Shown here: one piece after another, positions 1-20,741 of the stretch
Position numbering within the stretch: position 1 is the stretch's first letter
Layout of the letters: the number at the start of each line of letters is the position of its first letter
NCBI RefSeq assembly: GCF_000003605.2
Contig: NW_003143807.1
Coordinates: forward strand, 51,316 to 73,437
Direction: 5' to 3'
Source of the DNA: Saccoglossus kowalevskii
Lineage: Eukaryota; Hemichordata; Enteropneusta; Harrimaniidae
Length of the DNA: 22,122 nt
The notes under the pieces: model-generated
What the model was told of the DNA's origin: nothing
Databases searched by the model: none
The model's input: only the letters and a program-made list of their open reading frames with translations
Made by a program: the position numbers and the translations under genes

Positions 1-1180
1 CAATTTACTGTGTAAATGAAATGCCCTGGTTGTGCATATGCAACATATGCCAATATCATTGGTACCGGGGGTTCTCACATTGAAGTGCTATTTGTATATG
101 TGTCGCCAAAAGGGGTTCCAAATTCACCACTTCTGCCTGAAAAGATGTATGTTATTTTACCCTGTCTTTTTGAAAAGAGGTTCCCTTTTTTCATTATTTC
201 TGTCTGAAAAGGAGTCCATATTGTCTCTAGAGCTTGAGTGATCAAACAATCAGGAGATTGAAGCTGATTTTTTTCTTTCTGTAATTTCATTTCGATTTGA
301 ACGATTTAGATTTGAAGTTTATAACTATAGCTTGCAGTTTATAGCTTATTCAATATGACTAAAGATATGGATGGGAGCTAAGTGACGGGCGAATATCGTA
401 ATATACTACTGTGCCAACACTGAATAGATGGATCGACGTGACTTACTTATGAGTCATGTGTTTCAAGTGTTGTGAACACTAGCGTTGTGTTCGGGGGGAA
501 CTGTGCTCGCTAAGCTGATAACACTTACACGTAGAAACACCAGATTCGACCCTAAGGAATACATATAAGTTCATTACAGATAGTCCAGCTTTATTCATTC
601 AGACAGTCAGCTGAGGTAACGCCTCGCTGTTCATTTCTTTCCCACCTCCCTTACAAAATCTAAAAAAAATCTATTCTAAATCTCTTAGGCGTGGCAGAGT
701 AAATATGCGACCAGACAATCGCTGCAGTCGTTGACACTATCACGTGATTACCAGGGGTGTGTCTCACACTTAAAGCATGTATAGTTACCACTATTAAATA
801 CAATTAGTAAACAATCTATTTATTAAATTTCCGTAATATATGTTATTATGTCTATCCTAAACATGCAAGTAGTTGATTCTAAACAATACTGCAACGGCGT
901 GTAAACACAGTGTGCGTACATATATCGTTATGGTAACACATGTCTGATGCTCAGAAGTCGTATCCTCTTAGATACTCTTCTCCAATTATGGAGAATAAAA
1001 CTGTCGTCAGCGGACCCCAATAGTATTTTTTATTATGCGTGCTCAAACGACAGTGCTCAGTCGCGGCCTGTGGCGAAATACTGCTCGAAGTAGTTTGTGG
1101 AAAATCATGTTGATTTATTTTGGCTGTTAATACATATTTCTGCATGACTGTCCTGTGATTGTAATTCTACGAATACATAT
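1..1180. other. Gene-free stretch, left edge
   Basis: I see no exon with recognisable protein similarity here. Short open frames exist on both strands but lack splice context and look like chance. The only structure I can point to is a degenerate direct repeat near 109-215. No tRNA-like fold or histone 3' stem-loop was recognised by eye. Confidence 0.5.
109..218. repeat. Degenerate direct repeat, two units
   Basis: Two imperfect units follow each other about 65 bp apart. Each begins like AAAAGRGGTTCC, near 111 and 175, and each later carries a CTGYCTGAAAAG block, near 136 and 202. The similarity is partial and was aligned by eye. It could be a decayed minisatellite or a fragment of a dispersed repeat. 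Confidence 0.35.
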
Positions 1181-1183
1181 TTC

Positions 1184-1250
1184 CTAGCTTCACGTATGAT
1201 TTCATATGAAAATGATTTTTGCATCCACTCTCTTGAAACTTGGTTGAAGG
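1184..1250 (-). pseudogene. Relic of a DSTYK-like exon 2 (fifth copy)
   Basis: About 50 bp (1185-1235) matches gene A at about 3389-3438 with roughly 90% identity by eye. On the minus strand it reads FKRVDAKII in one frame and, after a one-base insertion, YEIIREARKY in the next. In gene A the corresponding peptide is LKRVDAKIISNEIIRQAKK, which lies in the helical region before the kinase domain. The frameshift and the absence of flanking exons show a dead remnant. It has the same orientation as gene A, so it may be the tail of an earlier duplication or a small templated insertion. Similarity beyond these limits fades, so the true extent is unknown. Confidence 0.75.
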
Positions 1251-2235: not shown

Positions 2236-5200
2236 TTATTTCTTCTGAGGGTCAATACGCCTGACGATGTCCTGTAATTGCGTTTTAATTTCACTGAAGC
2301 TTGGCCTTTGACGGGGATCGGTTTTCCAGCATTTATTCATCAGTTTCCAGCAGTCATCGTCAAACTTCTGCAGTCTCTCGGGTCGCACGACAAGTACACG
2401 TACTATAACCGGCACAGCAATCATCCCGAGGACGAGCTGTGTTGGTAATTCGCCTGTCCCGTCACATATAAACCACAATAGAACACCAAATGCATACACA
2501 TCCACTGCCTTGTCGTAATCAAATCCTAGCGTGATTTCAGGAGGCATATATAATGGGGTACCACATACAGTATCACCTACGAATCCTTCTGCTTTACATA
2601 AACCCATGTCTGCTATTTTTACCTGTCCCTGCTCATCCAACTGAAAATACAATAACAAATAAAAAAAATAAAAATGTTGATAGTACAGCAATGTTGTATC
2701 TTAGTTGTATATGTTGCTTTGAATGATCTATTAAAAATTTCGATCTTACCAATATGTTGTGAGTTTTTATATCTCTATGTACAATCCCCTTTCCATGCAG
2801 AAACTCCATGCCTTCTGCTATCTGCAGAGCAATATTCAGCCTATCTTTCAAATACGAAATATCCGCCAGACCCGTAGACAGGTCACATCTCATCCGTGGC
2901 ATTACTAAATAGACCTGATCATTGTGTACAATACTTGCAAATAACTTCACGATTCTTTCGTGGTTATGGAGCGCCCTATAAAAACGAGTTGAAAATTATA
3001 AGGGAGGCACACAGTTAAAATGTAATTCACTATGATTTAGACCTGGGTAAGATGAATAGATGAGTTACCTTGTATAGTGGACTTCCATTGCAGTTTGTTT
3101 ATTCAATTCCAATTCTTTGAAAACACATGGAGTTTTACCAGGACCCATTTTACCACAGTCGTACACACTGCCCTGACCACCTTTGCCAATCTCTTCTCCC
3201 TTAACAGGAAATCCAAATTCTCGTTTGTCGATGACCGAGTAAGTTCGTAGTTCTAATTCTGCAATTGCAGGCGTTCTATCGCGTATTTTCAGCCTTTCTT
3301 TCTCACTTAGTTCAATGTCCGAAGTGAGCAACGTCTTCAACTTATCCATGGCTTTCGCGAACTTGCGACGACATGTTTCAAGGTGTTTCTTAGCTTGACG
3401 TATGATTTCATTTGAAATGATCTTTGCGTCCACTCTCTTGAGTGCCTTCAATGCTTCGGCTTCTTTCCAACTCTTGTCAATCGTGACTACAGCCTCGTAC
3501 CGTTTTGTCTCTGAGGTAAAACTCTTTCTGAACCATTCGAGTAATCGTGACAAAACAGAATCTTTTCGAAATGAAACAACACTTTCAGCTCGATATGAAC
3601 TCATGGTGCACTGTCTAATTATATCTGATACGTCAGAGCCAGTCCCCGTTTCTTCCAATCTTTTGACAACTTCGGCCAAATCTGTCAAAATACTATCTTC
3701 GTCTGTGAAAATGTCTGCAAGTGTTTGTTCGACCCCAGCGCTGATTTTGTCTAGAACGAGTTGCTGAATGCTTTCGCTACATTTGTCTATGGCTTGGTTT
3801 CGTTTAATATAATCGTCAACTGGAATTTCTGGTAGACTAAACTCTCTGGCACTTTCAATTATATCAGGGGTATCTCTTTCTATTGTGGATGATATTTTAC
3901 GGTGAATGTAATTTTTTCTTTCTTCGAGTTTTTCTATGGCGTCAGTAAAAACCTTTTTCTCTGATTCTTTGCAGCTTCTGAACGTATCTTCACTCAATGT
4001 CATCTTTTCTTTTGCGCCGGTTGCATGTGTTATAAAGAAATCAATGCAGTGTGTGTGAGAAGCTAAGAGAATTCTAGCGGCCTTTATGATTATACCATCC
4101 AGTGATGACTCTACGAAGGTGCAGATGCTTCGCTGTAATCTTTGAAAATCAGCTACGAATGGATCATGACCACATTTCTTGGCTCGTCGGTATTCTTTAA
4201 CTTTCCAATTAGAAATACCATGGAATCGAACACACTCTTCCATTCTCACTCCATGCGGTAGAAGGCCATCTTTAACCAAACTGTCGTAAGCCCGACGTTT
4301 CTTTTCTTCAGCAGAGATTTCCACCTCATCATTATCTGCATCACTATCCACTTTGGTTACAACAAAGAATATAGTATCTGTTTGGTCTTTAATTTTCTTT
4401 ATGTCTTTTCTGTCCTGAAAAATAAAAGTAATTAAAAATGTGTTATCGCATTATATTTATGAAAATATAATTTGAATTTGAAGATATACCTATATTTATA
4501 AAAATATAATTTGAATTTGAAGATATATTTGAAGATATATATATTTGAAGATATACCTATATTTGAAGCATATATTTTCAACATACCATACAATTTTAAA
4601 ATGAAATTATCTTAGGAAGTTCTGATCGAACTGAAGATTATATCTAATCTACACATGATTTCATTATTAGGCTTTATTACCATTACCGAAAATGAACTGA
4701 ATTCTTGTTGTTGTTAGATTTAAAACCATTTAATTTAGAGAGTTTTTCATTGTGATAATAGTTATACAATGGGAATTTCTTTTTTATAATAATAATTTAT
4801 TCAGTATGCACCCTAGGCCTCCGGCCCTTTGTGCTAAAGGGAATTGAAACAACAATTTAGTGACCTTAATTAGAAATACATAAATGCATGCGTATAAAAA
4901 GTATTGTTCTCTCTGTTTGAAAGCAAAAAATAAAAATGTGGCTAAATTTCTCACAGTGTCCACATTGGATGAGGACATAAGCTGAACAAACTTCTCTATA
5001 TCAGGGTTAATAAAATATTGTCTAGGAATATACTTTGCTCTCAAAGACTGGTAGGAAGTACATATCAAAAGAAAATGGTACTCGTTGTCTATGTTGCCAT
5101 CATGACAACTGTGACATGACCTATTTTCCCGTGGAAGATTTACACGTCTTCCCTGTTCAATATTTAGAGTGTGGCTGGACACACGAAAAGAAGTTAAACA

Positions 5201-7035
5201 ATTTATAAGTATCAAGTCTACTAAAGCTGTTTATGTCTTTACATAAGTCTTTACATCGTTTTCTAAACGGGTTCATTTCCAACTCAGTGGTTATACCAAG
5301 CCTCAACAAAACCGTTATTCAATAGAATATTTTTTAGTTCATTGCTCTAGATAACATTAATGTACAATTCTGTTTGTATCCATTTTTAACATTTTTATCC
5401 AATATTTTACCATTCCGGGTAGCCTTAATGCACGTAAACTAAATATTCCAAGGCCCCCCCGTACTGCAGCATTAGTTGCTGATATATTATGTTTCAGGAT
5501 ATATTTACAGAATTTGGTATGTACGCGTTCTATGTTCGGGGCTGGGTGGTAGCCCCATATTTCACCACCATAGCTAAGAATGGGAAATATTTTGGAGTCA
5601 TAAATTTTGAAACAGGTTTGAACAGGGACGTCTTCGTGGGCTTTTAGTGGGGCAATAACTGTGAACATTGCTTTTTTGGCTTGTTCGGCAAGAACCGACT
5701 GGGCTTTTGTCCATGGTTCGCTGCAGGATAATACCACACCCAGGTATTTGAAATATGAAACTACTTTAACGGGATTGCCTTTATAGTGCCATTTTTCGTA
5801 GCCGCGCAGTGTTCTCCCCTTTCTAAACACCATTAAATTTGTCTTTTCCAAATTAACTTTGAGTTTGTACTTTGCACAGTAAGTTTCTAATTGATTTAAT
5901 ACTCATTGTAGTCTCTGCTGTCAGAACTAAATCGTCTGCAAAAAAAAGGTAGAGTATTTCTAATTGCCCAACAGAACAACCGCTAACCCATTCATCTTTT
6001 AGAAGTTCCTCGTGAAGGTCATTCAAGAAAAAAAAGGAAAGGTGAAAGGGTACATTTTTACTAATGCATTGCTCAACTAGCAAAGAGGGACATGTTGGGT
6101 GAACGAGTGAGTAAGTAAGTAAACTGCCTTAAAGACAATAATATTCAAACACTATGGTTATTAAACGGACACTATATTTAGAACTGCTCATGCAATTTGA
6201 TGTAAGCTGAAAACCTAAATGTGTATTTAGATCAGTCGGTCAGTCATGCATGACTTTAGTTGTACAATTCATTTAAGAGACCGACCGACAACACCTGGAT
6301 AATTAGTAAACGTATAAAATATATACGTACCTGCTCAGTCAACTGGTTGTTTCCATCTAATACATATACTACAAATGGAACTGTATTTTTCAGTTCACCC
6401 AGTACTATATTATCTAGATTTTCATCTTCTTGTAATCCAGGCGAATCAATTAGTTTAATGCCAGATTTCAGGAAATCATTATCTATTTCTGCTTCCACAT
6501 GGCTTCCAATATATATCGGATCATGTCGTTGTTCTTCTGTTAAGTCAACAAGATCTCTTGGTATTGTCTTCTTCTTTATGGCTCGCTCTTCTAGAACTTC
6601 CCCACTTTTGGAAACCACTCGGACTAGTTGTTTCTTTCCATATTTCAGTTTTACCAGTCGTGCTGTACATGGTATTTGTCTCATTGCAACAACGGTTCCA
6701 CCCAGTAACTCGTTGATGAGGGAACTTTTCCCTGAATTAGTCTGTCCGATAACAATGAGACTAGGATTTTGTTTCACTTTATCAATATCCAGCTGGTCCT
6801 CAGCATCAAGCAATGTGATAGCACCAGCGTCCATCTCGGTCTGTGTTGTCTTTGAAAGAACCGTTTTAATGCATTCGTACTCTTCTACGGTGGACGCCTT
6901 TAAATCTAAGAGCCTTCGTGAATCTTGTGAATATGCGGTAAATGCATTCTTCAGTGACACAATGCGTGTTTGTGTTTCCTGTGGGTTAAGCTTTGTAGTG
7001 GTGTTCGAAATACTTGCTTCTTTCGATGCCGCCAT
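2236..7035 (-). CDS. Gene A: DSTYK-like dynamin-type GTPase/protein kinase
   Basis: Four coding exons, read from 7035 downward: 7035-6331, 4414-3069, 2975-2750, 2640-2236. All introns are GT/AG with phases 0, 2, 0, and the product is 893 aa. The start ATGGCGGCA follows an A-rich stretch that favours initiation. The GTPase domain shows G1 GQTNSGKS (97-104), G2-like PCTAR, G3 DSPG (197-200) and, across intron 1, G4 TKVD (255-258). A long helical middle region carries HGISNWKVKEYRR and QCTMSSYR. The kinase shows glycine loop GKGGQG (645-650), beta-3 Lys668, HRD (Asp752), Asn757, DMG in place of DFG (770-772) and PPE (793-794 end). All core catalytic residues are present, so it is probably active. 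Length and order match DSTYK, a cytoplasmic kinase linked in vertebrates to FGF/ERK signalling and cell death. Intron 1 holds a LINE fragment. A hydrophobic stretch before RPERL in the C-lobe differs from C and D. It is divergent from gene B. Confidence 0.88.
4452..4575. repeat. 39-bp tandem repeat and AT-rich derivative
   Basis: Two nearly identical 39-bp units (4452-4490 and 4491-4529) contain AAAATATAATTTGAATTTGA. They are followed by shorter repeats of ATTTGAAGATATA up to about 4575. The array lies within 40 bp of the exon 2 acceptor of gene A. Confidence 0.8.
4775..6066 (-). mobile_element. 5'-truncated, decayed non-LTR retrotransposon (LINE)
   Basis: On the minus strand the fragment begins inside the reverse transcriptase palm. 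A block reading LSPFLFFL runs by frameshift into FLNDL, then the catalytic YLFFADDLVL near 5960-5935. After another frameshift come YKLKVNLEKTNLMVFRKG, the thumb region with FKYLGVVLS, and ILSYGGEIWGYHP. A third frame (5215-4784) holds the C-terminal block FRVSSHTLNIEQGRR with a CHSC...H...C zinc-knuckle-like pattern. The 3' end is an A-rich tail with TAA repeats, seen as T/A-rich sequence at 4780-4801. The pattern is that of jockey/CR1-like LINEs common in invertebrates. Several frameshifts and the missing 5' half make it inert. It shares gene A's orientation. I could not identify target-site duplications. Confidence 0.85.
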
Positions 7036-7292: not shown

Positions 7293-10200
7293 ATGTCTCT
7301 CAGCTTAGAACAAGTGTACAGCGAGTTCAAATTGAAACAGAAGAAATTGGGTCAATTATACCAAGATACCAATGGATACGTTCAACGGGTTCAGAGTGTA
7401 ATTCGCCGTCCCCTCCGAAAGAAGCTACAGCCAATTCTACTGTCTGAACAAGATGATTTGAATGTGAAGCGTGTAGTGGAATGTAGCCCTAAACTATATG
7501 TACTTGGCCACACGAGATGCGGAAAGAAGTCATTTATTAACAAACTATTGGGTAGGAAATTGTTACCACCATCTGATTTACCATGCACTACTACATTCAT
7601 CAAAATATCCTACTGTGAGTCAGGCTACATTCAAATGCTTGATACAAAGGGTACAGTTGTGAAACGGGATACAGTGGGAGAGGAGAGTATTCCCGATGGC
7701 TACACTAACTCAAGCCCCGTATTTACAACAGCCAATGAAATTGAGATGATAGAGATAGGAATTAACCACCCGCTTCTAGAAAATGGCGTCACTATATGTT
7801 ATCTTTCCACATCGGACCTGGATTGTGCTGCAGATATAATCAGAAAGGAGTGCAAAGAAAGTATACTGCTACCAATCATTTATCTTGTTGATAGCAATTA
7901 TGGAATTCGTCGCAGAGTAAGTAAACAATGCTTGAATTATTAAGAAAAGGAAACTTAATTAGAGATTACTGATTACTTGTTATAGAATGTGTATTATATG
8001 TGAATTGTTTTGAGACCCTGTATTGAAATACTCACATAAGTGTCGTCTGATCGCATGTACATTGCTAAGTATATGACATACAATAATTTCACACTAACTG
8101 CAACTTTTCGTTTTCAATCCATTGATAGGATCAACAGATGCTATGTACAATAAACAACTTATCAGCTGACTTGTCAATAATTTACGTCGGCAATAAAGTA
8201 GATGTTGACAGAGTTGCCGAAGCTATGGATATGCCATCAGACGACAGTGACGAAGAAAGTGGCGAGGAGTTATCAGTCGATAAAAAAAGAATAACGTTTA
8301 AAACGCTCCTTGATCATGGTTTTATAAGTGGCGATGCAGACAGTGTTGAATCATGCCGTGATTTTTATGGTGTTTCTAGCAAGACAGTCACTGGATTTGA
8401 TAATGAGTTTCAGAGGTTGAAGGCAACCATTGCTTCACTAACACAAAACATACTCAATGAGTACACAGTCCAAGCCTCAATAACGCTTCATTCTACACTG
8501 GTTGGATTGTTTCTTTCCATTGGTGTCCCAGCCTTGAGAAAATCTGATATCAACTCCAAACATACAGCGGCAAATAAGGAACTGTTTGTTCGTGGTATTA
8601 TAGCAGCTCATGAAAGGGTGGAGCATACAACTGAAAGTATGACAGAAATTATAGACGATGCACTTACGGGGAGTAAGTCAGTGATTACTACCCTGGCTGC
8701 TAATATGAAATACGACCCAATAAAGATCGAACATTCTGTCCACAAAGATGAAATGCTCATCCAATTGCGAAATCAAGTTCAACAACTTGTAATCATGAAA
8801 TTTTCACAGATAATGCAGATGAAATTAGGATATGAAATTGAGAATCTTGTGAAAAATGTTACCGGATTACTTGAACAAGGGACAAAGAGCCTCGGTAAAC
8901 TCCTTGCAAATTACACTTGTTCCATTATCCCGGTACCAAAGGTCAGCAACATGCAGGAGAAACTGCAATTCCATGTAAGATCTCACCTGATAGGCACGCA
9001 TAAAAAGCAGGGCTTACGACAGAAATTATCGTACATGTTAATGGGGCTGACGGTAAATGATAAATGGAGGGAGACTGTTGCTATGGAGATTTTGAATTAT
9101 ATATCTGTTAATGATATAATAGAAATTATTAGTAAGGATATACATAGGGGGATAAATTCATACGAGAAGAAAATGTTAACTTTGATCGGATGTCTGGATA
9201 CTATGAGTGAAGTCATGTCCCTGTCAAGTGATGTTAAAGATACCCCGGATGTGGTAACAAATATTTGCTATACTCTGCAGAGCAGCGAGGCCACGTTTGC
9301 TAGTTTGAACTATGGATTACTAGTGATAAGTGATGATGCATCAGAAGCAAAACAAGAATTCAGTGGTAAAAGGCACGCTATAAAGAGGTTGGAAGCGTGG
9401 GGAAAGTTCGGTGACGTTGTGGTGAGAATTGCGAAAGATAATAAATATCATAAGAGGGAAGCTGTTCTCGTGAGCATCGCAAGGTATGTTGAATTGTTTC
9501 ACGGATACTTTGCTTATTATGTGTCATGATTTCTATACTACAACATTACAGGTAAATATAATTACACAATTTTCTGTACAGGCACGTATTCAATTTGGAT
9601 AACATCATTGTTCCTGTCCTGGGTAGTGTTGACTGTGTTATCTATGGTGAAACACGTATTGCTACTATAGTACCATATATAGATCGTAATTTATGGACCA
9701 CATTATCCGATGGAAGTCTACAGAAAGAGAAAGTTAAAAGCAGGCTTCGGATTGCTCGACTTCTGTCCTTTGGCTGTGAATATCTCTCTGATCAAGGATT
9801 TCCAGTGGTTGATTTGCGTCCAACAAATATAATGGTATATAATTATATACATACATACATACGACATGCTAATTATGCGAATATACATGCAGACCAAATA
9901 CAAATAAACAAAATTACAAAACATAGTGTTCTTTTTTGTTCTAACAAGATGGTATTTCGTTTCTTTCAGTTAAAAGCAGATTGGACTCCCACGATCAACA
10001 TGCTCAAATCACGTGATGACAGCATTCCCTATCCTGATGGGAAAATTCCGTTCCATATCCCACCTGAAGAATATACAAACCCACCTTCGTCCGATATTTC
10101 CCCATTCATCACAACGAATGCTAGCGCTGTCTATTCCTTTGGAGTTCTACTTTGGCTATTGCTTCTCGGCAGGTTTCGGCGACCTACTTACGCAGATGTA

Positions 10201-10362
10201 GATGACGCACAGAAAATTGAGATACCGGAGAATAACATGGTCGAAAGTATCTGTCTAATTGACCACAAGGATAAAAAAATTCACAATGTTCTGAAGAGAT
10301 GTTTTTCCACTGATCCATTACAAAGGCCATCTTGGAGTAAAATAGTGTCCTTTCTTGCATAA
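7293..10362 (+). CDS. Gene B: DSTYK-like paralogue, predicted pseudo-GTPase/pseudokinase
   Basis: Four exons: 7293-7916, 8129-9483, 9582-9834, 9970-10362. Introns are GT/AG with phases 0, 2, 0, exactly as in A, C and D, and the product is 874 aa with no internal stops. The G1 loop is GHTRCGKK (72-79), with Lys replacing the Mg-binding Ser/Thr. The G3 DSPG is gone (aligned residues YLST). NKVD at 230-233 looks like an intact G4. The kinase has no glycine loop, Arg641 where the beta-3 Lys should be, VVD for HRD (Asp737 kept, Arg for the following Lys, Asn742 kept), and Met755 where the DFG Asp should be. PPE and VYSFGVLLW keep the C-lobe fold. An acidic linker DDSDEESGEE follows G4. The maintained frame and splice sites argue for a functional non-catalytic protein rather than a pseudogene. 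Confidence 0.85.
9848..9862. repeat. Short TACA microsatellite
   Basis: Just under four TACA units lie within intron 3 of gene B, a few bases after the splice donor. Confidence 0.7.
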
Positions 10363-13046: not shown

Positions 13047-16000
13047 ATGGCAACAGTTGCAGCAAAAAACGTTTCTACGCACATTACCTCATTGAAAGAA
13101 TCATTTTCGTTGTATCAGCGTGATTCTAATGAAATACAGGACGCACTAGAGAAAACAATAGAGGTGTACGACAAAATACGACGTACCCTGTCAGAAGAGG
13201 CACAGACTAAATTCGAGAGAAATGGAATTACACTACTCGATGAAGAAGACCAGCAACTAATTGAGAAGGTTCGTGTCAAACCTTGCATCATTGTCGTTGG
13301 CCAGACTAATTCTGGGAAGAGTTCGTTCATCAACGAGTTACTTGGTGGCACAGTGGTGACTGCAAGCGAGGTGCCATGTACAGCTCGTCTAGTCAAAATG
13401 AAGTATGGAGAAACCCAGAGAGTACGGGTAATTTCCAAAACCCGCAACGTCATACAAACGATAGACATGAAGGAAACAAGTAAAGCAATACCAAAAGCAA
13501 TAGTGGCACTCGCAGACAAAGAGCGAGAAGACGACGAAATGATCGGTAGTTATGTTGTCGCCGAACTTAACAACGACTTCCTGAAAAGTGGCATTGAAAT
13601 AATTGACTCTCCGGGTTTACAAGAAAACGAGCGCCTGAATAAACTTGTACTGGGAGCGGTTGATGACGATTTGAAGATCATTATATATGTGGTAGATGGT
13701 AGAAATCAATTGAACAGTCAGGTACGATAAACTGTATAATTATACCTTTATATAAACGGACTTTTGAAGATTTGAAATTACAATCAGTACATGAAAAAGT
13801 CAATATGTGTCTTTTCAAGCACGGAGAAGGGTCGTTGAACAGAATTGGTAATTTAATGTGATGATCATGAATCTCCCCTCAATTTGAGTTTATTCCATTA
13901 GAATAATTAAAGTGTATTCGCAAAATTTGTATTTGTGCGTTGTCTATTATCATGTAAACATTACTTGATATTTCAAGATTTTGCCAGTTGACATACTAAT
14001 ACTACCTTGTTTCAAACTTTTAAAAGTTCCAGCATTATTACGTCATATTCGCTAAAATTTTACAAGCAATATTACCGTAAATTAGGTGTGAATCCATGCA
14101 AAGTTCCTGTGTATTCAGTAGAGTATACTGTTTGTCTTTCACAGGATTTGACTGATATCAAGAAATTGTGCGATGGTAATAAGCGGAATGTATTTTTTGT
14201 AGTTACTAAACTCGACGAGCACAACACAAACAGCGGAGATGATATGAGTGCTGCGCAGACGAAAAAGGGTCGCGTCTACGACCGTCTGGTTGATGAGGGG
14301 TTTCTACCCGATTGTCCAATGGAGAATTGCAGCAATTTTCACGGAATTTCGAATTGGCGATTGAAATCGTACCGGAGAAAAAATAAGAATAACCCAGATC
14401 CGTTCGTGGCCGACTTCTTTAGATTACAAAAATGTATCTGTGATTTTATTGCACAGTCTCTCAATAACTTGATACTTGAGTCCAGCCGCATCCTTCTTGC
14501 TTCTCATACACGGTGTCTCGACTACTTCATTATGAAAACCACGGAGACGAAAACTCCAGAGTATAAAGAGAAAGAGTTGAAAGCATGCAGGGAAATTGTG
14601 AACGATGTATTCAAGAAAGCCATTTCAAAACTGGATCATACATCTGTGATTCTACAGCGTGACCTTAGAAACGTCATTGACAAAGAAAGAGAAAATATCG
14701 TGTCGTCCGCTCGAGAATATCAGATTACCGACGTGGCAGAAGTAGAAACCTGCAATAAAACGATACAGAAGTTAGTAATTAATATAATTAGCACAGCTGT
14801 GAATGAAGCAGTGGCAGACAGCTTCAAAAAAGAGGATGACATTTTAATTGATTTATATAATTCAGTTGCAGAGTTAGTGGACCACAGCGAACTTTCTGAA
14901 GTAGCCTCCATTATGAAACAATGCACAATGAGCTCGTACCGTACAGTCATGGCAACACCACTTCGTAGAGATTCAATACTTACCCGATTAAAAACATGGT
15001 TAGAAAATATGACTACTGCAGTTCAACCCCATAAAGATGATACTGTCATTATCGATAATAATTGGAAAGAGGATAGGGCTTTAGAGACCTTCAGTAAAAT
15101 CGACACGAAGGCCGTATCAAAAGACGCAATTAGTGAAGCCAAATGTCATCTTCGTAGTAGCAAAACGCAGTTCCAAAAAGCTATAAATCAAATAGAAAGC
15201 CTGATAAATTCAGATACGATGATCACAGAGATGGATGCAAAGAATATCAGAACGTTTGCACCTGATGTGGCATCACTGGAACTGAGGATTTACTCGATAC
15301 TTGACAGAAGAGAGTTTGGTATTCCTGAACGTGGTGAAGTGATTGGAACAGGCAGTCGGAGTGTCGTGTACGACTGTGGTGAAATGGGACGAGAAGCTTT
15401 ACCGTGTGCTGTGAGGGTTGTCAAATATGAAGTTGGAAGTAATGACCCAATGGAAGTACATTACACAAGGTGACCCGATATTCTTATTAATAAAATAAGT
15501 TGAGTAATACTACTCCGTAATATATACATAATGTTTATATTTTTTATTACAGACTTGTACATGAACATGAACGTATGCTACCTCTGCTGGCAACAATAAT
15601 ATACAATAACGAGTTATTGTTACTGACACCAAAAATGAGTTACAACCTTAAAAGCGCCCTGCCTAAATACAGATATTTGACTGACCGACTTCACGTCGCT
15701 CTCCAGGTATCACAGGGCATTGAATTCTTGCATAAAAAAGGAATTGTGCATAGAGATATAAAGCCTGAAAATATTTTGGTAAGTGTGCGCTTTATAAACC
15801 TCATATGCCAAGTATTTATTTTGAACATGCATTCAAATGTGGGACACCCTAATAACGTCATACTTGATTTTGTAATACAATCAGATAACCACACTTGGTT
15901 CGTGACTATCTTTCCGCAGCTAGACGAACATGGAAATGTGAAAATTGCAGATATGGGTTGCTGCAAGGCCGAAGGGTTTCTACAAGATACGTTCATAGGC

Positions 16001-16321
16001 ACACCAATGGTTATGGCCCCAGAGATGGCAATGGGCGCTGACTACGACAGGATGGTGGATGTATATGCATTCGGCATATTGCTGTGGTTTATATGTGATG
16101 GGACTGGATCCCTGCCAGAGACATATAAACATCATCAAGCTAACTCACACCTGCTAAATGTGTTTGGTGTACGACCAGAAAGATTGGACAAGTTTAATAA
16201 GCAGTGTTGGCGTCTTATGGAAAAGTGTTGGAGACAAGAATCTACAAGGCGAGTTACGTTCAGAGAAATAACTAAAGAACTTCAAAGCATCATTCAAAGT
16301 GTCGACCCCCTAGCAACATGA
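13047..16321 (+). CDS. Gene C: DSTYK-like GTPase/kinase with altered kinase ATP site
   Basis: Four exons: 13047-13721, 14145-15469, 15553-15778, 15920-16321. GT/AG introns have phases 0, 2, 0, and the product is 875 aa. The start is ATGGCAACA after an A-rich leader. The GTPase is intact by motif: GQTNSGKS (85-92), PCTAR, DSPG (187-190) and TKLD (246-249). The middle region carries HGISNWRLKSYRR, ILLASHTRCLDYFI and QCTMSSYR, shared with A and D. The kinase glycine loop reads GTGSRS (626-631), with its third Gly replaced by Ser. The beta-3 motif is CAVR, so Arg649 takes the place of the ATP-anchoring Lys. HRDIKPEN (Asp735) and DMG (753-755) are intact. It may be a weak kinase, use Lys652, or be catalytically dead with a working GTPase. 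Confidence 0.88.
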
Positions 16322-17318: not shown

Positions 17319-20300
17319 ATGGCAACAATGAAGGGAGCAGTTTCCAAATCGTTTATGAAAACACCGAAAGATGCTTTTTTAGCATACCAGCGTGATTCAA
17401 AAGAAATACTTGAAGTACTGCAAGGTACAAAAGATGTTTATGAACAAATTCAACAAATACTTTCCAGCAGTTCTCAGATGAACCTCATTAAAAGTGAAGT
17501 CACACTTTTGGACGACGAGGATCAGCAGAGGATAGAAACCGTCAGTCAAACTCCACAACTTGTTGTTGTTGGACAGACCAATTCTGGAAAGAGTTCGCTT
17601 ATTAACGAGCTATTAGGTGGCACAGTGGTCGCTATGAGTCAGGTTCCATGTACGGCTCGAGTGGTTAAAATTAAGTATGGCGAATCAAACAAAGTAAGAA
17701 TAAGGTCAAAAGATGGAAAAATCTTAGAAGAAAGAGCTATGAAGTCTAAGGTAATACCAAACGATATCATGGAGCTCAAAGAAGAAAAACGCCGAGACCC
17801 CGAGATTATCAATAGTTGGGTTGAAGCAGAAATAAATAATGACTTTCTTAAAAGTGGTATCGAAATAATCGATTCTCCTGGGCTACAGGAAAGTGAAATT
17901 CTCAATGAGATTGTTTTTGAAGCAGTCGACAACCAGAAGTCTTTCCTTATGTATGTCGTGGATGGCCGGAATCAATTTACGGACCAGGTATTGTGAATAC
18001 TAAACACGAATCCTGCAATTATTCATTACTTAGGACTTTCGAATGCTGAGTATTCAATCAACATCTTCCATGGGCACTATTTAGGAAATCTATAATTCAA
18101 TGTTTCATTTGAAACATAAAATTTAAAGAAAATTTAATTATTGCTTGAGTTTAATATACAAATGTACTTTACTGTAAACTATTATGTTTATTTGTATATT
18201 ATTTACATTACATAGGACTTGCTTGATATAACAAGACTATATCACACTACTACCGGCATTCGACGAAACATGTTGTTTGTAGTAACAAAAGTCGACGGGG
18301 ACACGAAGACAGATGGAGATAACAGAGACAAAGTTCAAGAGCGGAAACGTCGGGTTTACGACAGACTGGTCGATGAGGGATTTTTAACTAATGGACCAAT
18401 GGAAAAATGCGATATTTTTCATGGCATTTCATGCTGGAGAGTGAAATCATACCGGAGAGGTAAATGCAAAAATCGGGACACATTTGTTGACGACTTCCAT
18501 CACTTTCAGAAATGTGTTTATGAATTTGTTGAAAATTCACTCAATGCGGAGATAAAGAACTCCTGTAACATATTAATTGCTTCGCATTGTCGCTGCATTG
18601 ACTACTTTATCATGAAAGCCACAGAGGTGAAAGATCCTGAACACAGAGAGAATATCCTAAAAGAGTGCAAAGCAATTGAAGATGATGTATTCCAGAAGGC
18701 AATGTCAAAACTAAAAGCTAGAAAGAAGTTTCTACAACGTGAGATAAGAAACGTCATCGAAACAGAGACAGGAAATATTGTAGCATGCATTAGAGAATAC
18801 ACGTTGCTTGACACAGATGTAGAGAAGAATATGCAAACTCGCCATACAAGTGATGCTCAACTCTACAGTAAGAAAATAAAGCAACTAGTGACTGAAAAGG
18901 TTAGCATTGCTCTACGTAAAAGGATAGCTGACAGCTTTAAGGAAGAAGATGACTCTATAATTCAGTTATCAAAAGTCGTCAAAGATTTAGAAAATCAGAA
19001 ACAAGATTCCGAAGTTGCTGCTATTATCAAACAATGTACTATGGGTTCGTATCGCGTAGAGACAGCATTCTCAATATGCCGAAATCCATTACTCTCCAGA
19101 CTGAAGATATGGCTAACAAAATCATCTACCTGTGATGACATCAAAGACGATGTAATCACTGCTGATTGGAAAGAAGCAAGAGTATTGAAGACCCTCAGTA
19201 TGATAGATGCCAAATTTGTCGCCAAAGAATTAATAAGCGAAAGTAAAGCGCACCTCCAAAAAAGCAAAAAACAATTCCATAAAGCTATAGACCAATTGCG
19301 TAACCTAATGAAGATGGATACAACAATTACAAATAATGAAAGAATGAACATCAGAGAACTTGCTCCGTCCGTGGCGGACCTTGAGCTTAGATTACTGTCT
19401 ATCATATCCATGCAAGAATTCGGTGTACCAGAACTTGCAGACGAGATTGGACATGGTAGCCAAGGTACTGTGTTTGACTGTGGTAAAATGGGACCATATG
19501 GTGTAACATGCGTGACAAAACGCGTCAAACCGAACCATAGAGAGACTGTGGCAATGGAAGTACATTACACAAGGTAATTTTCAAAAAACAATAACATTTC
19601 ATATAGATGTTAGTGCAAAACGGACTCAATATAATATGAGGTTCTTACGAGAATACCTCAAAGTATGCACGAATACAGTACAGCTGCAGTATCTACCAAC
19701 TCCCAGTGTAGGTCGATGCGCGGCGTACTGTCTGAGTGCATACTTTGAGGTATTCTCGTAATAGCTATATTATTATACATCTTTTCCTTCCAAGGATACA
19801 TCATGGGAATGCCGAAATCCAAGAACTTATTTGTGGTGAAAGCCATGTTTGTTTGTTTTTATTATTGGAAGACGCTTACTCGCGTAACCATTCCATATTT
19901 GAATTCGCATTTCCTTATATGGTAGGATGAAAGTACCCCGTAAAATACTGCAAAATTACGTCACGTTGTAACTTATGGCGTTACGGTGACAGATGTATAA
20001 TGATACTGTTTCATTACAGATGCGTACATCAACATCAACGTATATTGCCTCTGTTAGCCACCATAATAGAAGGTGAAGAAGTATATTTAGTGACTCCAAA
20101 GATGAAATGTAGCCTTAACATTGCATTGCCAAATTATCCCTACCTGAAAGACAGATTGCAATTCGCTCTACAAATATCAGAAGGCCTCGAATTCTTGCAC
20201 AGGAGAGGTATCGTGCATAGGGACATAAAGGCAGCAAATATTCTGGTGAGTATGTATGTCAGTTCGTTTTCATTGGTGATTCTAGAAATTCTATAAATTG

Positions 20301-20741
20301 AGCATTTTGCATTGGTTTGACACTCTTATTTCGTGTTGTTTCTTTTAGCTCGACGAAAATGATAAAGTGAAAGTAGCAGACCTTGGATGCTGTAAAGCCG
20401 AAGGTTTTATAAACGATACTGTCATAGGCACGCCTTTGGCTATGGCCCCAGAAGTAGGATTGCGCACTGTGTATGATAAAATGGTAGACGTATATGCATT
20501 CGGTATTTTACTGTGGTTTATTTGTAATGGTACCGACACATTACCAGAAGCGTATAGACCATACCAGTCAACACTACCTCCTATTAGTGTTCGACCAGAC
20601 AGATTAGACAAGTTTGACAAGCACTGTTGGGAACTGATGGATAAGTGTTGGCGGAAAGATGCTGCAACCCGTCCTAGCTTCTTGGAGATCACGAAGGAAC
20701 TGAAATCAATCCTAAATAATGTGGACAGTGAAGCAAATTAA
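17319..20741 (+). CDS. Gene D: DSTYK-like dynamin-type GTPase/protein kinase
   Basis: Four exons: 17319-17987, 18216-19573, 20020-20245, 20349-20741. GT/AG introns have phases 0, 2, 0, and the product is 881 aa. The start context gcgATGG is strong. GTPase motifs are GQTNSGKS (85-92), PCTAR, DSPG (185-188) and TKVD (247-250). The middle region keeps HGISCWRVKSYRR, ILIASHCRCIDYFI and QCTMGSYR. The kinase has glycine loop GHGSQG (635-640), Lys658, HRDIKAAN (Asp744), DLG in place of DFG (762-764), GTP and APE. Together with gene A it has the most complete catalytic set. Exons 3 are 226 bp in A, C and D, which shows recent common descent. Intron 2 carries a perfect inverted repeat. The likely role is a cytoplasmic GTP-regulated kinase; substrate unknown. 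Confidence 0.9.
19645..19761. repeat. Perfect 26-bp inverted repeat, hairpin or small foldback element
   Basis: Arms 19645-19670 and 19736-19761 are perfectly complementary, starting TTACGAGAATACC. After a five-base mostly mismatched block, ACAGTAC at 19675-19681 pairs with GTACTGT at 19725-19731 in the same register, so the stem extends to about 37 positions. The unit is 117 bp and lies in intron 2 of gene D. Perfect arms suggest a recent foldback or MITE insertion. A hairpin RNA precursor is possible because the intron is transcribed. No clear target duplication is visible. Confidence 0.85.

Follow-up and report, generated by a model that had tools for sequence, protein, structure and literature searches.

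This study concerns a stretch of 22,122 nucleotides of the hemichordate Saccoglossus kowalevskii (C3472:51316-73437 in a 572-Mb assembly), which we call the window, and a gene in it, here named B, whose product joins a GTPase domain to a kinase domain and seems to have lost catalytic residues in both. The observations come from a single assembly of a single species, and the gene models were predicted from the DNA letters. B lies in the window with three siblings, A, C and D, and is one of at least eight such genes (A-H), which are all found on the C3472 contig. The four genes of the window have a common plan of a dynamin-type G domain, a middle part and a C-terminal kinase, with Pfam matches to Dynamin_N and to a kinase family in 4/4. 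A, C and D are mutually 47-54% identical, and B has 20-23% identity with them (18-21% when all eight genes are aligned). Against a profile of A, C and D, B aligns from end to end with 120.9 bits, compared with at most 4.3 for 300 shuffled versions of its sequence. This alignment, together with kinase intron places shared with a DSTYK-like gene elsewhere in the genome (on contig C1729), puts B in a DSTYK-like family, and judged by its motifs B is a doubly dead member of this dynamin-kinase family.

The initial annotation described B as intact in frame, length and all three introns. The coordinates and exon borders bear this out: the introns are GT..AG in 3/3 cases, have phases 0/2/0 and stand at places matching those of A, C and D. 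Chance cannot explain the open frame, because 874 stop-free codons at the composition of B have a probability of about 10^-26.6; the remaining five frames hold 31-80 stops. We regard B as almost certainly a functional coding gene. The third introns of B (9835-9969, 135 nt) and C (15779-15919, 141 nt) are open and in frame, and their retention would extend the kinase without breaking the frame. A coding role for the B intron was considered and dropped, as the introns at the same place in A (109 nt) and D (103 nt) are not multiples of three. Rfam and tRNA scans of the window found nothing.

The G domain of B passes the curated cut-off of Dynamin_N (27 bits) with 33.0 bits, while the remaining seven genes score 55.8-93.3 bits. 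Two losses that had been read from the letters, those of the G1 Ser/Thr (GHTRCGKK) and of the G3 DxxG, are both found at the expected places. G1 and G3 are complete in 7/8 genes and lost in B alone, and G4 takes a weaker form in both E (NKIE) and H (SKID). In terms of the patterns of a working GTPase, B lacks GxxxxGK[ST] and DxxG and keeps the G2 Thr and [NT]KxD, with Ser80 and Asn83 also retained. Among 31 G-domain columns that are invariant in the seven other genes, B has lost 14 and kept 17. Nine of the lost columns lie in the P-loop, switch I and G3/switch II, and five elsewhere, some of these being mild changes such as V153I. The same leave-one-out count gives 0-2 losses for each other gene. 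On this count the losses in B are clustered and not random: by its residues the domain is without its Mg, gamma-phosphate and switch-II half and retains its guanine-recognition half. In P-loop GTPases, a Lys at the Mg-binding Ser/Thr and the loss of the whole DxxG usually abolish Mg-GTP switching. B has the sequence features of a pseudoGTPase, and hydrolysis of GTP by it is very probably absent. The proposal that nucleotide handling had gone from both domains fits the missing G1 Ser/Thr, G3 and kinase residues but is too strong for the GTPase, where Gly77-Lys78, Thr99 and NKVD are intact. The P-loop Lys and guanine recognition are kept, and therefore binding without hydrolysis would be possible.

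In the kinase domain, the Pfam family Pkinase scores 22.2 bits, below its cut-off of 31.7, and PK_Tyr_Ser-Thr scores 38.5 bits, above its cut-off of 23.1. From the set of residues that marks an active kinase (Gly loop, beta-3 Lys, alpha-C Glu, HRD and DFG), only the Asp and Asn of the catalytic loop are left in B; the PPE motif is also retained. As first annotated, there is no glycine loop in register and no beta-3 Lys, although its place falls on Arg641 or Val640 depending on the alignment. The alpha-C Glu, further on, is lost as well (AVLVSIAR), and HRD has been reduced to VVD; both go beyond the losses first noted. The missing DFG Asp had been placed at Met755. No Asp stands there in 2/3 alignments, but the residue itself varies: phmmer against a PDB kinase gives Met755, hhalign gives Asn754 and one MAFFT run gives a shifted Asp760, which is common to E. 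On these residues B has the sequence features of a pseudokinase, and we consider it highly probable that it carries out no normal phosphotransfer.

Table 1. Gene B with its domain motifs, its siblings in the window and the further members of the cluster. Positions are those of the window unless the contig is named.
Feature	Coordinates	Strand	Description
Gene B	7293-10362	+	four exons, 2625 nt, 874 codons, sole stop is the terminal one
Gene B exon 1	7293..7916	+	N-terminus and first half of dynamin-like G domain, residues 1-208; Dynamin_N match
Gene B exon 2	8129..9483	+	G4, stalk, start of kinase N-lobe, residues 209-659
Gene B exon 3	9582..9834	+	middle part of kinase up to catalytic loop
Gene B exon 4	9970..10362	+	remaining kinase C-lobe and stop codon
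G1/P-loop GHTRCGKK, residues 72-79	7506..7529	+	Gly77-Lys78 kept; Mg-binding Ser/Thr replaced by Lys79; seven others GKSS
G2/switch I PCTTT, residues 97-101	7581..7595	+	Thr99 kept; Arg of seven others lost at 101
G3 (DxxG) place, YLST, residues 170-173	7800..7811	+	motif lost; D[SAT]PG in 7/7 others
G4 NKVD, residues 230-233	8192..8203	+	intact
Beta-3 strand VVVRIAK, residues 638-644	9416..9436	+	catalytic Lys lost
Catalytic loop VVDLRPTN, residues 735-742	9805..9828	+	H and R missing from HRD; Asp737, Asn742 retained; ISDLRVTN in E
Pseudo-activation segment TINMLKSRDDSIPYPDGKIPFHIPPEE, residues 752-778	9991..10071	+	without DFG; 19/27 identical to E
Space between A (-) and B (+) start codons	7036..7292		257 bp, from gene coordinates
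Sibling A, 893 amino acids	7035-6331, 4414-3069, 2975-2750, 2640-2236	-	GTPase and kinase motifs complete
Sibling C, 875 amino acids	13047-13721, 14145-15469, 15553-15778, 15920-16321	+	GTPase complete; beta-3 Lys is Arg
Sibling D, 881 amino acids	17319-17987, 18216-19573, 20020-20245, 20349-20741	+	GTPase and kinase motifs complete
Gene E	C3472:32449-35887	+	model covers the gene from a splice acceptor onwards
Gene F	C3472:123502-119997	-	DSTYK-like dynamin-kinase gene
Gene G	C3472:129857-126460	-	DSTYK-like dynamin-kinase gene
Gene H	C3472:130439-136417	+	DSTYK-like dynamin-kinase gene

The order of these losses can be read from the sister gene E. B and E form one clade in all trees, with supports of 100/100 over the full length of the eight genes, 95/92 for the G domain and 100/99 for the kinase. 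The kinase losses xxDLRxTNI and INMLKxRDDS and the missing beta-3 Lys are common to both, and E is by motif a pseudokinase with intact G1-G3. The kinase of B was thus lost before its GTPase: by parsimony, the catalytic set of the kinase would have gone in the common ancestor of B and E, and the G1 Ser/Thr and G3 later, on the B branch alone. This contradicts the suggestion that both losses are peculiar to B or arose in one event, as the dead kinase is shared with E and the kinases of F, G and H are also degenerate. The branch lengths of B and E are 1.64 and 0.63 over the full length, 2.11 and 0.53 in the G domain and 1.49 and 0.91 in the kinase, and E, the nearest sister of B, is 32% identical to it, so the branch of B is a long one.

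Since B and E parted, about 166 amino-acid replacements can be assigned to the B branch and 104 to the E branch. For changes polarised by a residue on which two or more of the groups ACD, FG and H agree, the ratio of B to E is 32:7 in the G domain (p=7e-5), 12:10 for the stalk and 15:8 for the kinase. When one outgroup is taken at a time, the G-domain ratio is 41:17 (A), 34:11 (C), 38:21 (D), 35:18 (F), 32:22 (G) and 48:22 (H), with p values from 0.0008 to 0.22 of which only that of G is above 0.05; these tests share data, and their p values are uncorrected for the number of tests. Without selection, 8.7-9.7 stops would be expected on the B branch, frameshifts aside, and none is seen (chance 6e-5 to 1.6e-4). 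The best conserved stretch between B and E is the pseudo-activation segment, with 21/30 identical columns in windows within residues 748-782, a value reached by 9/2000 column shuffles. From HRD to APE the two genes are 61% identical, compared with 32% overall. The conservation of the activation segment is suggestive of a part that is kept without catalysis, though it is not unique to these genes. The initial annotation took the open frame as a sign of selection for a non-catalytic role. The absent stops and the clustered losses support the selection, but a decoy, a scaffold and a dominant regulator are indistinguishable on these data.

The further members of the family came from searches of the worm's own genome with B, D and H and from the reading of 11 stretches of C3472. 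Only the best search candidates were scored, so gene counts are lower bounds; C3472:39676-51315 and 73438-118485 read N and may hide additional genes of the family. E, F, G and H have intron phases 0/2/0, no internal stop and Dynamin_N above its cut-off in 4/4. The kinase families exceed a cut-off in E, F and H, while G falls just short (23.8 against 31.7 and 21.1 against 23.1 bits). By motif, A and D have a complete kinase set, C carries Arg at the beta-3 place, and the kinases of B, E, F, G and H (5/8) are degenerate. F and G have YNN for HRD and Gln for the loop Asn. The mildest degenerate kinase is that of H, with NIG for DFG and the beta-3 Lys and the loop Asp and Asn kept. The ratio of nonsynonymous to synonymous change (dN/dS) between the F and G kinases is 0.35 (22 nonsynonymous and 16 synonymous changes), and across the regions of the two genes it takes values of 0.22-0.35, so by this measure selection also maintains these two neighbouring pseudokinases. 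Along F and G the synonymous distance drops from 1.13 in the N-terminus and G domain to 0.38 in the stalk and 0.13 in the kinase, and the 3' half has probably undergone gene conversion. Exon 4 of E (C3472:35297-35887) contains 58 Arg/Ser-rich residues between the pseudo-activation segment and VYAFG, where B has 21 and the six others have 13-15.

Outside C3472 the matches to B, D and H are confined to the kinase part, except on C1523, where a match to D begins before the kinase; on reading, this proved to be an unrelated kinase gene. A search of viral contigs with the four-gene alignment gave 48 pattern matches and 0 relatives. The separate gene on C1729 has a complete kinase (HRD, DLG and Lys), and we take it to be the putative DSTYK orthologue, judging by the human protein. 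Over one exon (74 residues) the D kinase is 47% identical to it. Both kinase introns of A-H are common to this gene, one after ..HYTR (phase 2) and one after the catalytic loop ..NIL/NVL (phase 0). Further upstream the sequence of this gene consists of N at about 946,501-950,650, where a G domain would be out of view. B is not the orthologue of DSTYK, since the C1729 gene is separate and B and E group together with 99-100% support in a kinase tree that includes it.

The siblings in the window had been called active. By motif this applies to A and D, which have the full kinase set, but C has Arg at the beta-3 place (CAVRVVK). Its glycine loop is also weakened (GTGSRS), and on these residues C may itself be heading towards a pseudokinase. 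The short stretch that separates the two start codons of A and B could be a shared two-way promoter, which is possible from the coordinates. A second head-to-head pair is formed by G and H, with 581 bp between the start codons (C3472:129858-130438), and each pair joins genes of differing kinase state. A 57-bp relic at 1180-1236 (-), 89% identical to exon 2 of A, is a dead copy within the cluster. Intron 1 of A contains open pieces of 181, 148 and 91 amino acids at 4784-6128 (-), which look by eye like remains of a non-LTR (long terminal repeat) retrotransposon, and beside its splice acceptor lies a tandem AT-rich 39-nt repeat at 4452-4529. In intron 2 of D, an inverted repeat at 19645-19761 with 37-nt arms, 92% complementary and 43 nt apart, is perhaps the footprint of a small mobile element.

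What might a protein with two dead enzymes do? In the dynamin superfamily, contacts between G domains are driven by GTP, and in kinases closeness permits mutual phosphorylation, while pseudokinases can set the state of a partner. In the DSTYK-like family, GTP-driven contacts of G domains and stalks might therefore gather the kinases. On this view E, F, G and perhaps H would take part in the gathering with little or no phosphorylation of their own. B would fold and join the assemblies through its stalk and pseudokinase, without a GTP cycle or phosphorylation, and as a static subunit it could cap or fix sibling assemblies and so restrain or allosterically set the catalytic siblings. The likeliest partner would be gene A, judged by its head-to-head position only (257 bp). 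Our leading reading, which we believe and doubt in about equal measure, is that B is a constrained two-domain pseudoenzyme of the DSTYK-like family, a fixed subunit without a GTP cycle, which holds back its catalytic siblings or sets them allosterically. For the part of this reading that makes B a non-catalytic partner of the siblings, we are slightly on the sceptical side. A bolder version is that catalysis was lost stepwise in the cluster and that the dead segment (INMLKxRDDSxxYPDxKxPFHIxPE, shared with E) became a new conserved surface which locks or docks onto sibling kinases, making of two dead enzymes a nucleotide-independent master subunit. This is speculative, and we think it improbable.

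Several observations weigh against the regulatory subunit. The G-domain excess in B is not significant with outgroup G (p=0.22), and with outgroups C and D only there is an excess in stalk and kinase too (p 0.01-0.03). The stop count spans the B branch in its entirety and would be compatible with selection that ended recently, and in the Nei-Gojobori comparison of B and E (860 residue pairs aligned) synonymous sites are saturated, which leaves no usable dN/dS for B. The region from HRD to APE is also the best kept part of the kinases of C and D (71% compared with 54% overall). A and B may lie next to each other by accident, as G and H are also head to head. The retained P-loop Lys, Thr99 and NKVD leave room for nucleotide binding by B.

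This last point leads to an alternative compatible with B as a partner as well as with B on its own, namely that B still binds a nucleotide as a structural or signalling ligand, holding GTP unhydrolysed and possibly ATP via a migrated Asp760/761. Besides the G-domain residues, Asp737 and Asn742 are kept and the RDD pair is conserved in E. A precedent is the N-terminal pseudoGTPase domain of p190RhoGAP, which has GTP bound without hydrolysis (PMC10211241). However, B has a Lys at the Mg-binding Ser/Thr, its DxxG is wholly lost, and the beta-3 Lys and alpha-C Glu are both gone, and we regard such binding as somewhat unlikely. It is also conceivable, though again unlikely and a little more so, that B is a self-standing pseudoenzyme apart from its siblings, either an immune decoy or sensor or a scaffold, the fast G domain being a new binding surface. 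Rapid change is indeed found mainly in the G domain, with the stalk and kinase roughly at the pace of E, and an eight-gene expansion with repeated catalytic loss is a pattern familiar from immune gene families. Yet nothing indicates which partner B would then have, the activation segment conserved with E speaks for a role common to both, and one saturated sequence permits no test of positive selection.

A dying pseudogene that is by chance still open would fit the terminal branch of B, the longest one both in the full-length tree and in that of the G domain, and the many motif losses, and the relic of A in the window demonstrates that copies do die here. The absence of stops on the whole branch, the intact frame and six splice borders and the clustering of the losses nevertheless make a drifting pseudogene very unlikely. 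Least probable of all, and hardly credible, is an artefact of assembly or annotation (a wrong exon choice or a sequencing error): there is a single assembly with gene models made from its letters, but the losses lie mid-exon between conserved residues in an unbroken frame, and E, at a separate locus, shows these kinase losses too.

B, doubly dead by motif, can be compared with several known systems. One is DSTYK (RIPK5), a protein that is little understood and whose N-terminal part seems little discussed. Its P-loop is presumably degenerate in vertebrates. In literature on DSTYK with a GTPase domain or dynamin, the titles and some passages hold no account of a dynamin-GTPase/kinase architecture, which is a statement about those titles and passages and not about all that is in print. 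In the cluster a dynamin-type GTPase is linked to a DSTYK-like kinase, and one genome carries versions that are intact, half-dead and doubly dead. Such a natural series could reveal what each domain does, and whether a protein can persist for its shape after losing two enzymes. In vertebrates DSTYK is reported to be a single-copy kinase (PMC2100071), in contrast to the eight clustered genes here, and the kinase of the putative orthologue on C1729 is complete whereas that of B is degenerate.

For the G domain, a profile of all eight genes finds the bacterial dynamin-like protein BDLP (2j68) as its best match in PDB (E 1.7e-18), followed by the GTPase Der (9.1e-16), a bacterial dynamin-like two-chain structure (5owv, 1.5e-14) and the mitofusins Fzo1 (2.6e-14) and MFN1 (4.4e-8). 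The B sequence itself has domain-wise matches only. BDLP and the mitofusins are working GTPases without a kinase; their G domain is like that of A-H, and B differs from them by the lost G1 Ser/Thr and G3. The closest working precedent for the proposed role is the IRG family, in which Irgm1 restrains the activation of the IRG system of its paralogues (PMC4837601). There an altered paralogue restrains the canonical ones, while regulation by B is a proposal only. IRG proteins also have no kinase domain, and the change in B is from Ser/Thr to Lys with loss of G3, that in IRGM presumably being from Lys to Met.

A GTPase and a kinase on one polypeptide, as in A-H, are found in the Roco/LRRK proteins, and the Roco4 kinase is among the PDB matches of B (E 0.00018). 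The GTPase of these proteins is Ras-like and not dynamin-like. They carry ROC and COR domains (PMC10492769). PseudoGTPases such as Rnd1/Rnd3 and CENP-M serve as allosteric partners or scaffold (PMC10211241), and pseudokinases have non-catalytic roles (PMC8141879). Each of the two kinds is known separately (PMC5593906, PMC8141879, PMC10211241). In literature joining pseudokinase and pseudoGTPase there was, by title, no work on one protein with both. The weak PDB matches of B include ILK (E 0.0024) and PTK7 (E 0.00045), beside many active kinases. Like B, p190RhoGAP, ILK and PTK7 keep domains without catalysis, but each of them has one kind of dead domain, whereas in B the GTPase and the kinase motifs are both lost within one chain.

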